Source: an uncultured Sphingorhabdus sp.
GTDB taxonomy: Bacteria > Pseudomonadota > Alphaproteobacteria > Sphingomonadales > Sphingomonadaceae
Length of the DNA: 5,117 nucleotides
Direction: 5' to 3'
Assembly (NCBI GenBank): GCA_937873665.1
Contig: CALMYW010000101.1
Coordinates: 1 to 5,117 of the forward strand
Shown here: positions 1 through 5,117 of the stretch, piece by piece
How the letters are laid out: each line of letters opens with the position of its first letter
Numbering within the stretch: the first letter of the stretch is position 1
The notes under the pieces: generated by a model
Database searches by the model: none
Told to the model about the DNA's origin: nothing
The model's input: only the letters and a program-made list of their open reading frames with translations
Translations under genes and position numbers: made by a program

Positions 1-216
1 GCCGCCATCGGGCAGTTTGCAGGTGGCGGCGGCAAAGGCACCCGCGGTGCCGCGCCCCTTGTCATTGTTGCGACCAATCAGTGCGAGAAACCCCGCGGCG
101 ACCGCCGACAGATCGACTGAGTAGGTCGCAAACAATGCGAGCTTGACCGTCTCCAGTCGCCCTGGCCGCATCTCGTCGAGATAGGGTTGCCCGGACCATG
201 CCTGAGGATCGCTCAT
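1..216 (-). CDS. N-terminal fragment of a probable phospholipase-D-like (PLD/HKD) family protein; 3' end outside the window
   Basis: Translation from the ATG at 216 gives 72 residues without a stop, beginning M-S-D-P-Q-A-W-S-G-Q-P-Y-L-D-E-M-R-P and continuing with A-T-Y-S-V-D-L-S-A-V-A, then L-A-L-I-G-R-N-N-D-K-G-R-G. A start of this type, R-P-x-G, then a T-Y-S-V-D-L strand, then L-A-L-x-G-R, resembles the lead-in of PLD-superfamily DNA-processing proteins found beside helicases in bacterial defence clusters. The diagnostic H-x-K motifs would lie further along, outside the window, so the assignment rests on resemblance only. The start is firm: GGAGG at ideal spacing and a four-base ATGA overlap with the DUF6361 stop. 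It is the last gene visible in the operon. The reading frame is near certain; the family is tentative. Confidence 0.65.
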   Translation of the reverse strand, partial: MSDPQAWSGQPYLDEMRPGRLETVKLALFATYSVDLSAVAAGFLALIGRNNDKGRGTAGAFAAATCKLPDGG

Positions 217-1466
217 GCGACGTCCTCCAGATCGCGCAGGAGCCGCTTCACATTCCCCCAGCGATAGTGGAGTGGCTCTGCGCGGCCATGGTGCTCGCCT
301 TGCCATTCCATACGCCGGTCGACGCCGAACTGATTGCTGGCAAGACGCGCGCGATTGTCTTTCCTGCTGACTTCCGCCCGTGCGTACACTTCGAGAAGCT
401 GCATGGGGTCCTTGCCATTCGCCCTGATCCAGGTCGAAGTTTCTTTCAACACACCCTCCACCGCAGGCGGGAGGTGGCCGATTTCGGCGAGAAACAGGTC
501 CATATCCAGCCGAGCGGCCTGTTTGCCCCATTGCTCGATCGCGTCGTTCAGTGCGGCGCGGTGCAAACTGGGTTGTGGTCGCTTGTCGCGGGTTTCCTTG
601 AGCGTCTCGACCTGAGCCGCATAGATCGCCCTGCCTATGGCCGAAAGCGCGGCGGCCTGGCCGGCCCGCTTCAGCATGGCCGCTTCCCTGCCGGCGAGGG
701 CTAGGATTTCGTTGTCCCAGCAGTGATCTGCCTCGCCTAGTGATTTTCCAACCAATTTCGACAAGAGCGACGGCTCACTTGGATCGGTCGGCGAGCGAAC
801 GGCGCGGAGTTTGGTCGCGAGGTAGATCTGCTCTTGGGGTAAAAGGTCGAGCGCTAGTTTTCCTTGGTCATCCTTCGAATACCGGTCATTCCAGTCACCC
901 CAAGTATCCCAGCCTTTAGGTGCATCGATCAGCCCCGCGATGGGCCAGGTGACTGTTTCTAGGGGCTTTCCGTCATCGTCATGGTGCGCGCGCTTGCTTG
1001 ACGCTGCCAGGAGCTTCGCCATGTCCGAGCGGCTCCACGGCCGGCCATCCGGGCGGGCGCCGATCAGTCCCCATTTGGTGAGCGCCGTCCAATAGACATA
1101 GGCCGGCGGCTGACTGATCGTGCGGGGGAAGACCTCTCCTCCGATCACGCCATCCTTCTCGCCGCCAACACCCTCGACATATTTGAGCCGGCCGGTCAGC
1201 TCATGTTCGAGATCAGAAAAGGCTTGGCCAAAGTCCTTGGGAACAGGGCGTTTCGTCCGCAGGCTTTGATAAAGCCAGGGGATGAGAAGCGCGTAGCGCA
1301 GGCGTGTGTGCAGAACCGATGTGCCGGGGAAGAAGTGATCTGCGTAACGCTGGTGGACGATGAGGAAACCAACCTCATCGCGCACGCCCGCCGCGCCGCC
1401 GAACATCATCTGTTCGGCCTGGCCCAGCGCTTTGCGCGATAAGAAAGTAAACCCAAAAGTTGACAC
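213..1466 (-). CDS. DUF6361 family protein, function unknown
   Basis: With the GTG at 1466 the product is 417 residues; the GTG at 1481 would add five. The N-terminus reads M-S-T-F-G-F-T-F-L-S and is followed near residues 45-66 by F-F-P-G-T-S-V-L-H-T-R-L-R-Y, then L-L-I-P-W-L-Y. That F-P-G-T-S...T-R...R-Y...P-W-x-Y pattern is what I recall as the hallmark of DUF6361, usually about 400 residues long. No catalytic motif I can name, signal peptide or membrane segment is evident. The C-terminal half is helical and rich in Ala, Arg and Lys, ending W-G-N-V-K-R-L-L-R-D-L-E-D-V-A, so a soluble, possibly nucleic-acid-associated protein is plausible. It lies about 60 bases after the helicase stop and overlaps the next start by ATGA, suggesting it works with both neighbours. 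Family call is from memory and was not searched. Confidence 0.75.
   Translation of the reverse strand: MSTFGFTFLSRKALGQAEQMMFGGAAGVRDEVGFLIVHQRYADHFFPGTSVLHTRLRYALLIPWLYQSLRTKRPVPKDFGQAFSDLEHELTGRLKYVEGVGGEKDGVIGGEVFPRTISQPPAYVYWTALTKWGLIGARPDGRPWSRSDMAKLLAASSKRAHHDDDGKPLETVTWPIAGLIDAPKGWDTWGDWNDRYSKDDQGKLALDLLPQEQIYLATKLRAVRSPTDPSEPSLLSKLVGKSLGEADHCWDNEILALAGREAAMLKRAGQAAALSAIGRAIYAAQVETLKETRDKRPQPSLHRAALNDAIEQWGKQAARLDMDLFLAEIGHLPPAVEGVLKETSTWIRANGKDPMQLLEVYARAEVSRKDNRARLASNQFGVDRRMEWQGEHHGRAEPLHYRWGNVKRLLRDLEDVA
224..228 (-). promoter_or_regulatory. Ribosome binding site (GGAGG) inside the end of the DUF6361 gene
   Basis: GGAGG lies seven bases upstream of the ATG at 216-214 and is embedded in the last codons of the preceding gene. 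Together with the ATGA stop/start overlap it fixes the downstream start and indicates translational coupling. Confidence 0.75.
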
Positions 1467-1474
1467 GAAGCCTG

Positions 1475-1479
1475 CTCCC
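1475..1479 (-). promoter_or_regulatory. Ribosome binding site deciding the GTG start at 1466
   Basis: On the minus strand GGGAG is followed by eight bases (CAGGCTTC) and GTG at 1466-1464. The alternative in-frame GTG at 1481 has no purine-rich sequence upstream. Starting at 1466 gives M-S-T-F-G, the form I expect for the start of DUF6361 proteins. Confidence 0.5.
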
Positions 1480-1529
1480 ACGGCGTGGTAAAATTTCTGT
1501 CTCAGGAAGGTTTCCGATGCCTGACGGTA

Positions 1530-4500
1530 TCATTCACTACCAATAATTTTCAACCTCATGGCGCGGGTTTCGAGCAAATAGGTCTCGACGCCGGCAAGCA
1601 GATGCAAGCCTTCTTCACTGATGGCTTGTCGCGATAGCCCCGGCTGCACAATTCGGACGTCGAACTCGAAGCGGTGATCTTGCCACCCGACCTTGAGCTT
1701 CTTGATCGCGGCGGCTGAGCCCTGCTCGATTCGCGAGCTGAGACTTCGGTCGCGGCGCATCTTTTCGCGTCGCAGCATGTGTTGAAGCATGCGGTTTGGC
1801 CGGTCGCGCCACCGAGCGGATTTCTGAGCCTGTCCGCAAACCTCATAAAGGTCTCCGAGGCGCGCACCTGGCGTATCCGCCCCTGAATATTTGCAGTGGT
1901 ACAGGGTCACGGAAACGACGCTGTCAGTTATGCGCAGCGCCACGACATCGGCGATTTCGCCTTTGCCATCATCGTCGAAGATCACGTCATAGGGATCTGG
2001 GTCGGCCAACAGGGTGTCGATGACCAGACGCTGGACAGAGTCAGCGCGCTTGTCCGTGCCCTGGGATTCGACGCGAATATTGGCCTTTGACCAATCCCAT
2101 GCCTCGATCTTGTCTGACGGGTACGGCTCGATCGTTTCGCCCTCGGGCAGGGTGTAGAGATGGCTGTAGATGAGAAGCGAGCCATCACCGAAGTCGATCT
2201 GAGGTGAGTCCTCGCCGAAGGATTCCGAGAGCTTCTGGACCTTGCCGCCGATCTTGATCGTCGCCTTGGGGCCGGCGCGTTGGGGGTAACGGGCGTGGCC
2301 GTCGCTGAAGACGATCTCGAACTCGGCCGCGTGGTCGTCGCTTCGCACGGCGAAGCGCAGCGGCCCGGTGCGCGCGTTATCGAGCAACTCGATATCGCAT
2401 TCGGCGAAGGTTACCGGCACATCGCCAAACGAGATCTCAATCCGCTCCTCGAACTGCGTGATCAGAGATTCAGGCCAATGGATCGCCACGGGCGGAACAG
2501 CCGGTCGTTGGCTGATCTGGTGGGGGCGCATCGCGCTCTTGAAGACGCCGTCGGTCGTGATGCTGGGATCGTTCACCGTGCGGCCGACATCCTGACACCA
2601 GTCCACCCAGTCGGTCAGGTCATGGACCTTGGCGCTGGACCAGAACTTGCCCTTGGCCGAGCATCCCCGTGAAGCAGGAAGGCCTTCGAGGAAGCCGGTG
2701 GCGAAGATATTGTTCTTTATCCTCGACTGGGACTTCGCGCTGTCGAGGCCATCGGCGACATCCACGCCCATATACATCGAATAGCGGACGCCTCGTCCCT
2801 GATGGTGGGTGAGGCCGAGATTGCGCAGAATGAGCCGCTTGAACCCGTGGAGGCTGCGGAACACTTCCTCGCCTTCCACGCGGCGCGTCGTATCGCCACA
2901 AACCGCCTTTGCGAGCCGGTCAAACGGCCCCTTGGCAGAACTGCTGATATAGAGCACGCCGCTTGCCTGATCCCAGTGAAGCATGTGCAGGTCCCAGGTG
3001 ACGTTCACCGCCTGCTGCGCGGAGGTCCAGCGTGCCTGCTCCTCCGCCCGCGTCACGAAGATCGCAACCCGTTGATGCGGGTTGAGCTTCATGCCGAGAT
3101 AGACGCCGGGGTCGTAGAGTTCTTCTGCGCGAAAGGGATCCCAAGCGTCGCAAGAGGTCCGGTACAGGACCGCGTTCATTTTCGGTTCCAGGGTCTGGAG
3201 CGGAATGTCGCTCAGATCTCCCGAAAAGCCCTTGAACATTTCCGCGCGGCGAACCTGGCGTTCGATCTTTGCGGAACTGAGCGCCTCCACCAACGCATTC
3301 CAGTCGGCGTCTTCGGCGTAGAGCTTGGCCAGCGCGCGATCGACATCGTCGATGCCGGTATTGGCGATCACCGTGGCATCACCCAGCCTCGGGTCCTGGC
3401 GGGTGAAGCGGCCGACGAACTGGATCGTCACCGCAACGCTCTTGTGATGATCGTGCAATGCAGCGATCTTCAGCTCGGGCAGGTCGAAGCCCTCGCCGAG
3501 CATATCGACGCAAACGATGATCCGGCTCTCAAAACGGCGTAGCGCGGCAAGATTTTCGCGCCGTTCCTTCAGTGATTGCTGGCTGTGGACTATGACTGGC
3601 CGAAAGTCTGGATAGATCGCCGCATAGAGCCTGTGCAGGTGCTTGGCGCGTTCGATCGTGTTGCAGCGGGCCATCGCAAGATGATTGAGGCCAGCATCCA
3701 GGTCGGTGGCGAGCACTTCGCCGAGCTTGTCGATGATGGCCTGGTCCGCGTCAGGCTGGTCCAGACCGAAGACTGCTTCGAAGCGGATCGGCTTGAAATA
3801 GCCCTCCTGCTGCGCCTTTTTTAGCGGGTAGGTGTAAATGAACTCGCCATCGACGCGGCCTCCGTCCTCGCGAAACGGCGTAGCGGTGAACTGGATCACT
3901 GGGATTGGTGGCTCGTGCTCGACGAAGAGCCCGCGGAAGGACTTCCACGTCCGTGCCCCGATATGATGCGCCTCGTCGATAAAGAGCGCTGAGGCGCGGG
4001 CCGCCATCCGCTCCTGCACCGGTGCCTCGGCGCGGCCAGCGATCTGCATCGTGGTGACAATGACATTGGCGCTGTCGAAGATTTCATCGACTTCGGCCTG
4101 GCTGGTCGGAATATGCGAGAGCCGCATGACCAAAGGGAAGGCTGCGGTCTCATCGAGGCATTTCTGCTGCTTCAGGACGCCGAAGGTCTCGAATTTGCTC
4201 GCGATCTGCTCGCGTAGCGCGTCGGTCGGCACCACCACCAGCAGGCGTTCGAACCGCTGGTTGGCATTGAGCGCCAGCATTGTCTCGGTCTTGCCCGTGC
4301 CCGTCGGCATGACGATGGTGGCCGGATCGGTCGATCGCGTCGCGTGGGCAAGCGCGGCATGAAGCGCGCCGATCTGTGGACGCCGCAAGCCAGGCTGCGC
4401 CGGCTGACCGTCCGCCGCAGCTCGTCCCTCGCGCAGATGAATCGCGTCGATCCAGGAAGCGGAGACAGCCTTCAAGCGCTCGCTGCGCGCGGAACAATCC

Positions 4501-4772
4501 AGCGTGTCGATGCTGGTGGGCGGTACATTCATCCACCGGCCTTCACCCAGTTCGAGCGCCGCAGCGATCCGTTCCGGCTCCGTTGCGCCGGGCACAAGGA
4601 GAATGAGATCGGCTTCCAATGGCGTGGTCGTCTTCGCGCTGATGATCTTCAGAATCTCGCCGGATTCCAGGGTCGTCTCGTGACCATTGACGCGGCGGAT
4701 GGCGAAGGGGCGCAGTCGGCACCGCACACGCTTCGCCGGAACAGCCAACTGACGCACAGGGCTTCCCAGCAC
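1530..4772 (-). CDS. Superfamily 2 DEAH-box helicase (ResIII/SSL2-like) with a C-terminal PD-(D/E)XK-like nuclease domain
   Basis: This 1080-residue protein (GTG start at 4772) should be a cytoplasmic ATP-dependent DNA translocase or helicase. All superfamily 2 motifs are present: a Q-motif-like L-R-R-P-Q at 129-133, Walker A M-P-T-G-T-G-K-T at 155-162 (K161), motif Ia V-V-V-P-T-D at 179-184, Walker B D-E-A-H at 266-269, motif III T-A-T-P at 296-299, motif IV around V-I-V-H-S at 393-397, motif V near G-E-G-F-D at 426-430, and motif VI Q-F-V-G-R-F-T-R at 451-458 with both arginines. Residues about 500-900 match nothing I recognise. Residues about 915-1000 look nuclease-like: D942 in G-E-I-A-D, then Y-H-C-K-Y-S with H959 and K961, then a Q-A-Q-K-S helix at 981-985. 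The GTG at 4772 lacks a good ribosome binding site, so the true N-terminus is probably at 4867, about 32 residues further upstream, through a frameshift. Helicase assignment is near certain; the nuclease is an inference. Confidence 0.92.
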   Translation of the reverse strand: MLGSPVRQLAVPAKRVRCRLRPFAIRRVNGHETTLESGEILKIISAKTTTPLEADLILLVPGATEPERIAAALELGEGRWMNVPPTSIDTLDCSARSERLKAVSASWIDAIHLREGRAAADGQPAQPGLRRPQIGALHAALAHATRSTDPATIVMPTGTGKTETMLALNANQRFERLLVVVPTDALREQIASKFETFGVLKQQKCLDETAAFPLVMRLSHIPTSQAEVDEIFDSANVIVTTMQIAGRAEAPVQERMAARASALFIDEAHHIGARTWKSFRGLFVEHEPPIPVIQFTATPFREDGGRVDGEFIYTYPLKKAQQEGYFKPIRFEAVFGLDQPDADQAIIDKLGEVLATDLDAGLNHLAMARCNTIERAKHLHRLYAAIYPDFRPVIVHSQQSLKERRENLAALRRFESRIIVCVDMLGEGFDLPELKIAALHDHHKSVAVTIQFVGRFTRQDPRLGDATVIANTGIDDVDRALAKLYAEDADWNALVEALSSAKIERQVRRAEMFKGFSGDLSDIPLQTLEPKMNAVLYRTSCDAWDPFRAEELYDPGVYLGMKLNPHQRVAIFVTRAEEQARWTSAQQAVNVTWDLHMLHWDQASGVLYISSSAKGPFDRLAKAVCGDTTRRVEGEEVFRSLHGFKRLILRNLGLTHHQGRGVRYSMYMGVDVADGLDSAKSQSRIKNNIFATGFLEGLPASRGCSAKGKFWSSAKVHDLTDWVDWCQDVGRTVNDPSITTDGVFKSAMRPHQISQRPAVPPVAIHWPESLITQFEERIEISFGDVPVTFAECDIELLDNARTGPLRFAVRSDDHAAEFEIVFSDGHARYPQRAGPKATIKIGGKVQKLSESFGEDSPQIDFGDGSLLIYSHLYTLPEGETIEPYPSDKIEAWDWSKANIRVESQGTDKRADSVQRLVIDTLLADPDPYDVIFDDDGKGEIADVVALRITDSVVSVTLYHCKYSGADTPGARLGDLYEVCGQAQKSARWRDRPNRMLQHMLRREKMRRDRSLSSRIEQGSAAAIKKLKVGWQDHRFEFDVRIVQPGLSRQAISEEGLHLLAGVETYLLETRAMRLKIIGSE

Positions 4773-4867
4773 CTTGCCGTCAACGGCAAGCCGAGCCGGC
4801 AGCAGGAGTTCGATCTCGGGGTTGAAGAGATCGTCCTGGTGCCGGTGGGGCGCTTGCGGGAGGCCAT
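4773..4867 (-). other. Probable N-terminal coding extension of the DEAH helicase, disrupted by an apparent -1 frameshift
   Basis: The ATG at 4867 opens a frame that begins M-A-S-R-K-R-P and then turns into low-quality sequence rich in T, R, S and C, which stops at 4649. The frame used by the helicase body stays open upstream of its GTG at 4772. There it reads H-R-H-Q-D-D-L-F-N-P-E-I-E-L-L-L-P-A-R-L and then A-V-D-G-K before the GTG, which looks like genuine protein running smoothly into the body. The two frames differ by one base. Adding a single C to the CCCC run near 4847-4850 would join M-A-S-R-K-R-P to H-R-H-Q-D-D and give an uninterrupted protein of 1112 residues. Whether this is a real mutation, a sequencing error or programmed slippage cannot be told from the sequence. 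Confidence 0.6.
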
Positions 4868-4872
4868 CGTTT

Positions 4873-4880
4873 CTCCCTCC
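4873..4880 (-). promoter_or_regulatory. Strong ribosome binding site ahead of the ATG at 4867
   Basis: On the minus strand the gap after the upstream stop codon reads GGAGGGAG, followed by AAACG and then ATG at 4867-4865. It is a near-perfect anti-Shine-Dalgarno match at good spacing. It argues that translation of the large helicase starts at 4867, although that ATG is not in the frame of the helicase body. Confidence 0.75.
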
Positions 4881-4881
4881 G

Positions 4882-5117
4882 TCAGGCTGCCACGGTCTGT
4901 GGCGAGGGCGAGACGACGATGACCGTTCCCTTCGTCATCAGGACGATGAGCCCGCGCTCGGCGCTGGTCATGTCGAGATAGGCCCGTACCTGAGCCCGAT
5001 AGTGTTCGAGCGCCTTGTCGTCAGGGTTCACATCGCTTTTCCAGTCCACCACCACGACCGGCCGGCCGTCGACGTCGACGGTCAGGGCGTCGGCGATCCC
5101 GGCCGTCACGGTCTCCA
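4882..5117 (-). CDS. C-terminal fragment of a UvrD/RecB (AddA)-type helicase-nuclease; 5' end outside the window
   Basis: The reading frame is open from the window edge to a TGA at 4882-4884, leaving about 78 C-terminal residues. The GTG at 5109 is an internal codon, not a start, because the frame continues upstream as E-T-V. The fragment carries the closing signature of RecB/AddA-family PD-(D/E)XK nucleases. A G-I-A-D-A-L strand supplies an acidic residue, followed by V-V-V-V-D-W-K-S-D, the equivalent of the family's vvDyKtd with the D-x-K catalytic pair. A helix H-Y-R-A-Q-V-R-A-Y-L then matches the family Y-x-x-Q-x-x-x-Y motif. In known members this domain ends a superfamily 1 UvrD-like helicase and cuts DNA during end processing. 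The helicase part is not visible here, so a stand-alone or Cas4-like nuclease remains possible. It is the most upstream gene seen in the operon and ends 14 bases before the next ATG. Confidence 0.8.
   Translation of the reverse strand, partial: ETVTAGIADALTVDVDGRPVVVVDWKSDVNPDDKALEHYRAQVRAYLDMTSAERGLIVLMTKGTVIVVSPSPQTVAA

Follow-up and report, generated by a model that had tools for sequence, protein, structure and literature searches.

Azaca is a named three-gene defence system (ZacABC; PADLOC models PDLC03828-03830), for which anti-phage activity was reportedly described by Millman and colleagues in 2022, and Shango (SngABC; PDLC03958-03960) is a second such system. AddAB is a break-repair enzyme that binds double-strand ends, then unwinds and degrades the DNA with two nuclease sites. 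We analysed a stretch of 5,117 nucleotides from an uncultured Sphingorhabdus sp. (contig CALMYW010000101.1; hereafter the window), which a preliminary description had presented as a compact four-gene helicase-nuclease operon and a possibly undescribed defence system. The window covers the central part of a six-gene operon, in the order T1, T2, T3, ZacA, ZacB and ZacC, where T1, T2 and T3 are our names for the three genes that precede Azaca (loci and genomes likewise carry our own numbers, L and G, respectively). Azaca is already known; the occurrence of the T1-T2 pair as a part shared by Azaca and Shango appears to be new, judging from the open-licence literature searched. We propose, with a confidence slightly above even, that T1-T2 constitutes a mobile AddAB-type helicase-nuclease, additional to the host's own, which Azaca, Shango and perhaps other systems have recruited as a common means of degrading DNA.

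Four reading frames follow one another on the minus strand in one run across the window, and their identities agree with those first proposed (a RecB/AddA-type nuclease tail, a large DEAH helicase with a nuclease-like C-terminus, a DUF6361 protein and a PLD-like start):

Positions 4882-5115, minus strand: tail of T2, an AddA-like UvrD helicase-nuclease, comprising its C-terminal RecB-type nuclease end; the frame is open at the window edge (PDDEXK_1, E 8e-4; matches to Cas4-type nucleases)
Positions 1530-4867, minus strand: T3, a DEAH/ResIII helicase with a C-terminal PD-(D/E)XK-like end (ResIII, E 7e-21; Helicase_C, E 2e-10)
Positions 213-1481, minus strand: ZacA (DUF6361) of Azaca (PADLOC ZacA, E 4.6e-90; Pfam DUF6361, E 1.6e-13)
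Positions 1-216, minus strand: start of ZacB (PLD-like) of Azaca, its first 72 codons, cut by the window edge (PADLOC ZacB, E 5.7e-9 over 72 residues)

The run is as tight as had been stated: 14 bases lie between the T2 stop codon (ending at 4882) and the ATG of T3 at 4867, T3 and ZacA are 48 bases apart, and ZacA and ZacB overlap by ATGA. The PDDEXK_1 match of the T2 tail scores 19.8 bits, below the Pfam family cut-off of 22. The PADLOC match of ZacA spans residues 7-420 of 422, and its predicted model (mean predicted local distance difference test score, pLDDT, 84), for which a clear fold match was looked for and none found, suggests a mostly helical protein. The T3 gene of the window has 4 bases fewer than those of L003, L005 and L006, about nine codons in (window positions 4820-4867), so that the usual ATG is out of frame; the open frame is 1530-4772, from a GTG at 4772, and the gap may be an assembly error.

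The closest relatives of the window are contigs that are 97-99% identical to it over the aligned stretches. One of them, L003 (Caulobacterales), aligned at 97.5% identity over the shared stretch, carries on one strand the six genes T1 (PDDEXK_1, 884 residues), T2 (1130 residues), T3 (1113 residues), ZacA, ZacB and ZacC, including the full-length forms of the two genes cut by the window edges:

L003, 3204-6596: full-length T2 (UvrD-helicase, E 8e-55, and PDDEXK_1)
L003, 11266-13071: full-length ZacB (PADLOC ZacB, E 3.3e-115; PLDc_2, E 1.5e-6)

The ZacC helicase directly follows ZacB in L003 (PADLOC, E 6e-268) and is likewise placed in L004, L005, L007-L011, L013 and L016. The six-gene order is complete in L003, L005, L008, L010, L011 and L013; the ZacB frame is broken in L004, the contig end falls inside ZacC in L006, and L001, L002 and L012 are short contigs. 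The caution that the flanks could change the reading was well placed; the relatives put T1 upstream and ZacC downstream. Past the six genes of L003 come a tyrosine integrase gene on the opposite strand and then a reading frame resembling guanosine monophosphate (GMP) synthase, as judged by reading the sequence, so that this locus looks like an island.

The locus resembles Azaca in having ZacA and ZacB in the window, ZacC next to them in relatives, the A-B-C order and overlapping genes. It differs from it in that T1, T2 and T3 precede ZacA on the same strand, whereas the PADLOC Azaca models cover the last three genes only. From the ZacA and ZacB matches, half of the window's cassette therefore belongs to Azaca. 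The interpretation of the preliminary description is thus supported in part: a defence-type DNA helicase/nuclease locus is indeed present, but it is not a single undescribed four-gene system. Its ZacA/ZacB half maps to an already named system, one of the outcomes that the description had itself listed as refuting it, and only the T2/T3 half, the end of the three-gene AddAB-like plus DEAH module T1-T2-T3, can be regarded as undescribed: no name for that module was found, T1 giving no PADLOC match at E 0.001 and the open-licence literature no description among the matches listed and in the passages accessible. The view that the locus fits none of DISARM, Druantia, Mokosh and Dpd stands, their signature sets being absent among the six genes. 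None of their signature proteins occurs in the complete PADLOC lists for T1, T3, ZacA and ZacB, none of their families is among the best 25 of the 48 PADLOC families matching T2, and ZacC gave only partial helicase-domain matches to DrmD, DrmA and DpdE (best E 5e-10).

At the level of fold and motif, T2 is a predicted AddA-like superfamily 1 (SF1) helicase with a C-terminal RecB-type nuclease. The full-length protein scores 300.5 bits against the addA_alphas model and its best sequence match in the PDB is AddA (3u44_A, E 9e-32). Its helicase motifs are invariant in all 15 aligned sequences, and the nuclease residues of the stretch GIAD...VDWKSD...YRAQVRAY are kept in at least 14 of the 15, the exception presumably being L038, a shorter sequence. 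T1, which gave no sequence match in the PDB and no PADLOC model match at E 0.001, is predicted to be the AddB-like partner subunit with a RecB-type nuclease of its own. The top five PDB matches of its predicted fold (mean pLDDT 85.5; predicted template-modelling score, pTM, 0.64) are AddB chains (Foldseek E 3e-24 to 2e-22, TM-score 0.58-0.60 of the query, with a root-mean-square deviation of 9-14 over the whole chain), the best being 4ceh_B (E 3e-24, TM-score 0.60 of the query, 14% identity), and AdnA and RecC come next. The nuclease residues H626, D743, D758, K760 and Q778 of T1 show no variation among 19 sequences, whose identity goes down to 39%, and the RecB-type nuclease residues are invariant also in an alignment of 62 sequences. 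The T1 and T2 genes overlap. As for T3, GTGKT, DEAHH and the C-terminal D975, H992-x-K994 and YEVCGQ do not vary among the 10 aligned sequences, one of which is the window's copy; this conservation supports the nuclease-like C-terminus first proposed for it.

The pair thus resembles AddAB/RexAB, AdnAB and RecBCD in the SF1 helicase and RecB-type nuclease of T2 and in the AddB-like predicted fold of T1 with its nuclease end. It is unlike AddAB in its plasmid location, in its defence-gene neighbours, in the length of T1 (884 residues, versus 1132-1156 for solved AddB chains) and in that no cysteine of T1 is invariant in the alignments of 19 and 62 sequences. The iron-sulphur cluster of AddB has conserved cysteines, and since these are not present in every AddB they were not used to define an AddAB-like family. 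That T1-T2 consists of housekeeping double-strand-break repair genes lying by chance beside Azaca, as these AddA/AddB-type features would allow, is scarcely credible. Taking the curated cut-off of TIGR02784 (860.75 bits) as the test for housekeeping AddA, we found that each of the eight host genomes checked encodes a separate AddA elsewhere that scores above it. In the seven genomes where it is listed T2 falls below that cut-off, with 270-308 bits versus 1064-1444 bits for the host enzyme, and only a T2 remnant is present in G006, the home of L007. Moreover, T1 is rare in the class (8 of 385 genomes), and it is found on plasmids. The housekeeping reading, which the preliminary description had named as one that the flanks might reveal, is therefore refuted for the genomes tested: T1-T2 is an AddAB-like second copy.

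A search for T1 gave hits in 64 of 72,556 plasmid records and in none of 50,697 phage records; among 385 genomes from the class to which G003 belongs, 8 carry it, counting G003 itself. Of 7994 candidate proteins scored, 1515 are T1 homologues at E 1e-10. The gene contexts of the pair, examined for 21 of the 64 plasmid records (one of which, L033, has no annotation), and those of the contigs fall into the following kinds:

L003 group: Azaca, with T3 between
L033/L052, L034, L035, L037, L050, L058, L059: Azaca directly behind T2 (PADLOC checks on L035, L037 and L052)
L028: Azaca genes on the strand opposite to the pair
L054: ZacC fragment convergent with the pair
L018, L019 (with T3) and L036, L053, L063 (without T3): Shango directly before T1 (PADLOC checks on L018, L053 and L063)
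L020, L021: bacteriophage exclusion (BREX) genes, divergent (BrxC confirmed in L020)
L051, L052: WYL regulator and HmaA, divergent
L039: cyclase, E1-E2 and JAB genes of a cyclic-oligonucleotide-based antiphage signalling system (CBASS), directly upstream of T1
L038, L060: type III restriction genes upstream (match of the restriction subunit weaker in L060)
L034, L035, L057, L058, L059 (upstream) and L056 (downstream): multiubiquitin/ThiF/DUF6527 cassette
L040, L041, L055, L061, L062: no recognised partner

The same T1-T2(-T3) module therefore stands upstream of Azaca and downstream of SngC, Shango itself being absent from the window. Both joins are close. The distance from the T2 end to ZacA is 4-116 bases, on the same strand, in L050, L052, L037, L034, L035, L058 and L059, the Azaca lineages that the pair precedes being very different from one another, and T1 starts 2 bases after SngC, on the same strand, in L018, L019, L036 and L053 (272 bases downstream of it in L063). 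The partner can change while the pair stays similar: between L003 and L033 (proteins taken from L052), T1 and T2 are 89% and 90% identical and ZacC only 30%, whereas between L003 and L008, both with the window's type of Azaca, the values are 87%, 88% and 93%. Azaca, Shango and BREX neighbours are mixed among T1 proteins 75-90% identical to that of L003. This mixing holds irrespective of the long rows (L063, L056, L039, L061 and L040) of a T1 tree that we made from 31 sequences. The tree is of a quick kind, with Shimodaira-Hasegawa-like approximate likelihood-ratio test (SH-aLRT) support only and partner labels assigned from the gene contexts, and it excludes the T1 rows L004, L006, L028, L049, L052 (apparently the same record as L033) and L055. 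Its starred branches force at least four changes for Azaca, two for BREX and two for Shango, and the presence of T3 changes five times.

Co-occurrence was also counted across genomes. ZacB (E 1e-30) is present in 7 of the 385 genomes and both ZacB and T1 in six. With the centre genome G003 left out, as it had been selected for having the system, five of the six ZacB genomes have T1, itself present in seven of the 384 (Fisher p 2e-9), and two of the five SngB genomes have T1 (p 0.003), both p values ignoring kinship. ZacB and the pair are directly linked in G003, G183 and G279. In G033, counted as a miss, the T2 end lies just before ZacA on a 4.4-kilobase (kb) contig; in G068 T2 and a ZacC fragment abut at their ends, with ZacA and ZacB on another contig; the ZacB contigs of G073 and G296 (11.8 and 6.2 kb) show no pair. 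From these counts, the tie of the pair to Azaca is strong and its tie to Shango occasional in the surveyed class.

How such a shared tool might operate can be sketched from the known activities of AddAB. The partner system would recognise and open the invading DNA, a task that in Azaca would fall to the helicase ZacC and the PLD-type nuclease ZacB; T2 and T1 would then bind the exposed end as a heterodimer, T2 would unwind it, and the two RecB-type nuclease sites would cut both strands while moving, T3 being an optional further motor-nuclease. T1 and T2 would thereby form a complex that degrades DNA after the partner system has acted and protects the cell from phages or plasmids. These last points are inferred, whereas the sequences directly show which genes are present and in what order, their families, their intact motifs, the AddB-like fold predicted for T1, the distinct AddA of the hosts and the repeated switching of partners. 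In a broader form, which we hold tentatively and consider somewhat short of an even chance, the pair would be a general plug-in immune effector, a mobile AddAB dedicated to defence and recruited interchangeably by unrelated sensing systems (Azaca, Shango and perhaps BREX, Hma, CBASS and type III restriction) to finish invading DNA independently of the host AddAB.

The main rival, which we regard as rather doubtful, is that T1-T2 forms a defence system of its own, whether or not T3 is present, and that its closeness to Azaca, Shango and the others reflects only the usual tendency of defence genes to cluster and be reshuffled on plasmids and islands, without any functional link. Several observations favour it or weigh against a shared tool. 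The pair has no recognised partner in five of the loci listed above, its neighbours are of many kinds (CBASS, defence-associated reverse transcriptase (DRT), type III restriction-modification, AbiE, Hma), and T3 relatives exist without it. Most of the surveyed Shango places lack the module, the pair being adjacent at one of six SngB places (two of the other five lie on contigs of about 5 and 6.6 kb). Azaca also occurs with only part of the T1-T2-T3 module upstream (L007, L009, L016), without the upstream module in Gammaproteobacteria (L014, where only 1.5 kb upstream is covered, and L015), without an adjacent pair in L029 and L064, and likewise on the plasmid L027, where a T1 relative (39.5% identical) lies about 25 kb away. 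The BREX and Hma neighbours are transcribed divergently and may simply share the island. In the tree, the second change for Shango depends on L063, a long branch; the Azaca label is clustered (4 changes versus a shuffled mean of 10.2, with 0 of 500 shuffles as low), as are all ten partner labels together (11 changes versus 17.1, 0 of 200 as low), and 500 of 500 shuffles match the value for BREX, a label with two rows, so that this test carries no information for it. From the clustering and the forced changes together, partners are partly inherited and partly exchanged: the exchange is real but not free. What speaks against an independent system is that the 2-base junctions with SngC, the 4-base junctions with ZacA and the repeated joining to Azaca on the tree exceed what neighbourhood would lead one to expect, although they fall short of proving co-operation.

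Two other explanations would give the pair a different task. It may protect the host by repairing or clearing the breaks that the partner system makes in the host chromosome, in keeping with the break-repair role of AddAB, with partners that are nuclease/helicase systems and with an SOS-response-associated peptidase gene directly after T2 in L060. We consider such self-damage control improbable, given that all eight hosts checked already have a separate AddA and that the module lies on plasmids (64 records) and beside an integrase in L003. Alternatively, the pair may serve as a reserve or a bait for phage proteins that block the host AddAB/RecBCD, keeping end degradation going or allowing the attack to be sensed when the host enzyme is inhibited. 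Blockers of RecBCD are encoded by phages, and Gabija is reported to restrict phages that carry them (PMC12407980); T2 is also far from the host enzyme in sequence, as its scores indicate. This explanation leaves the recurring partners unexplained, and we deem it very improbable.

Other described systems were compared with the locus as well. The T2 helicase part matches Gabija GajB, RTasHel and other UvrD-type defence helicases among its best 25 of 48 PADLOC families; these matches are partial, and T2 differs in having a nuclease end of its own and in its AddB-like partner. T1-T2-T3 stands divergently beside WYL, BrxA, BrxB, BrxC and PglX genes on two plasmids (L020 and L021, UvrD not being annotated in L021), and the pair stands beside WYL/HmaA with T3 in L051 and without it in L052; because of the divergent transcription, a functional link to BREX or Hma is uncertain. 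A word search of the main text of a 2026 BREX survey (PMC12839542) found none of AddA, AddB, RecB and UvrD. Word searches of the open-licence literature returned, among the matches listed and in the passages accessible, no description of T1-T2 as a shared part of Azaca and Shango, and the passages on these two systems offered no mechanism. Exchange of one AddAB-type machine between Azaca and Shango would mean that both probably produce or guard DNA ends, a direct, testable clue to their working. It would also follow that defence databases cut such operons short (PADLOC names three of the six genes here) and that break-processing enzymes, usually host repair machinery, can become a mobile, shared immune effector.

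Several observations concern the surroundings of the module. At three Azaca loci (L007, 1-6600; L009, 1-6320; L016, 1-9950) it is partly lost or replaced, with a truncated T2 near HmaA in L007 and a T2 frame that starts with a stretch not matching T2 in L009. Divergent from T1 and just upstream of it, L051 (16108-16992), L052 (15510-16394), L054 (8254-9138) and L037 (12957-13826) each carry a gene for a WYL-domain regulator; those of L051, L052 and L054 are 53-79% identical to the BREX-side WYL protein of L020, and the regulator is possibly a switch of the T1-T2 module. On rhizobial plasmids a recurring cassette directly upstream of T1 comprises genes for a response regulator, a small protein, a UvrD helicase, multiubiquitin, ThiF and DUF6527, its ThiF in L035 giving only weak CBASS E1-E2 matches:

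L034, 6528-13782: multiubiquitin/ThiF/DUF6527 cassette
L035, 6574-13833: the same cassette
L057, 4536-11789: the same cassette
L058, 4568-11827: the same cassette
L059, 4556-11807: the same cassette

In L039 (10513-21072), Type II-like CBASS genes (cyclase, E1-E2, JAB) run into T1-T2 and a gene for a metallophosphoesterase with weak similarity to an anti-phage family; a CBASS effector is not named among the 14 features listed there, and T1-T2 might therefore fill the effector place. In L050 (15682-19377) the gene immediately upstream of T1-T2-ZacABC encodes a DRT type 1a reverse transcriptase. Finally, T3 relatives that are 34-44% identical occur without T1-T2 in the annotated stretches of L022-L026, in L022 beside CBASS genes, and these relatives are a possible single-gene helicase-nuclease defence family.

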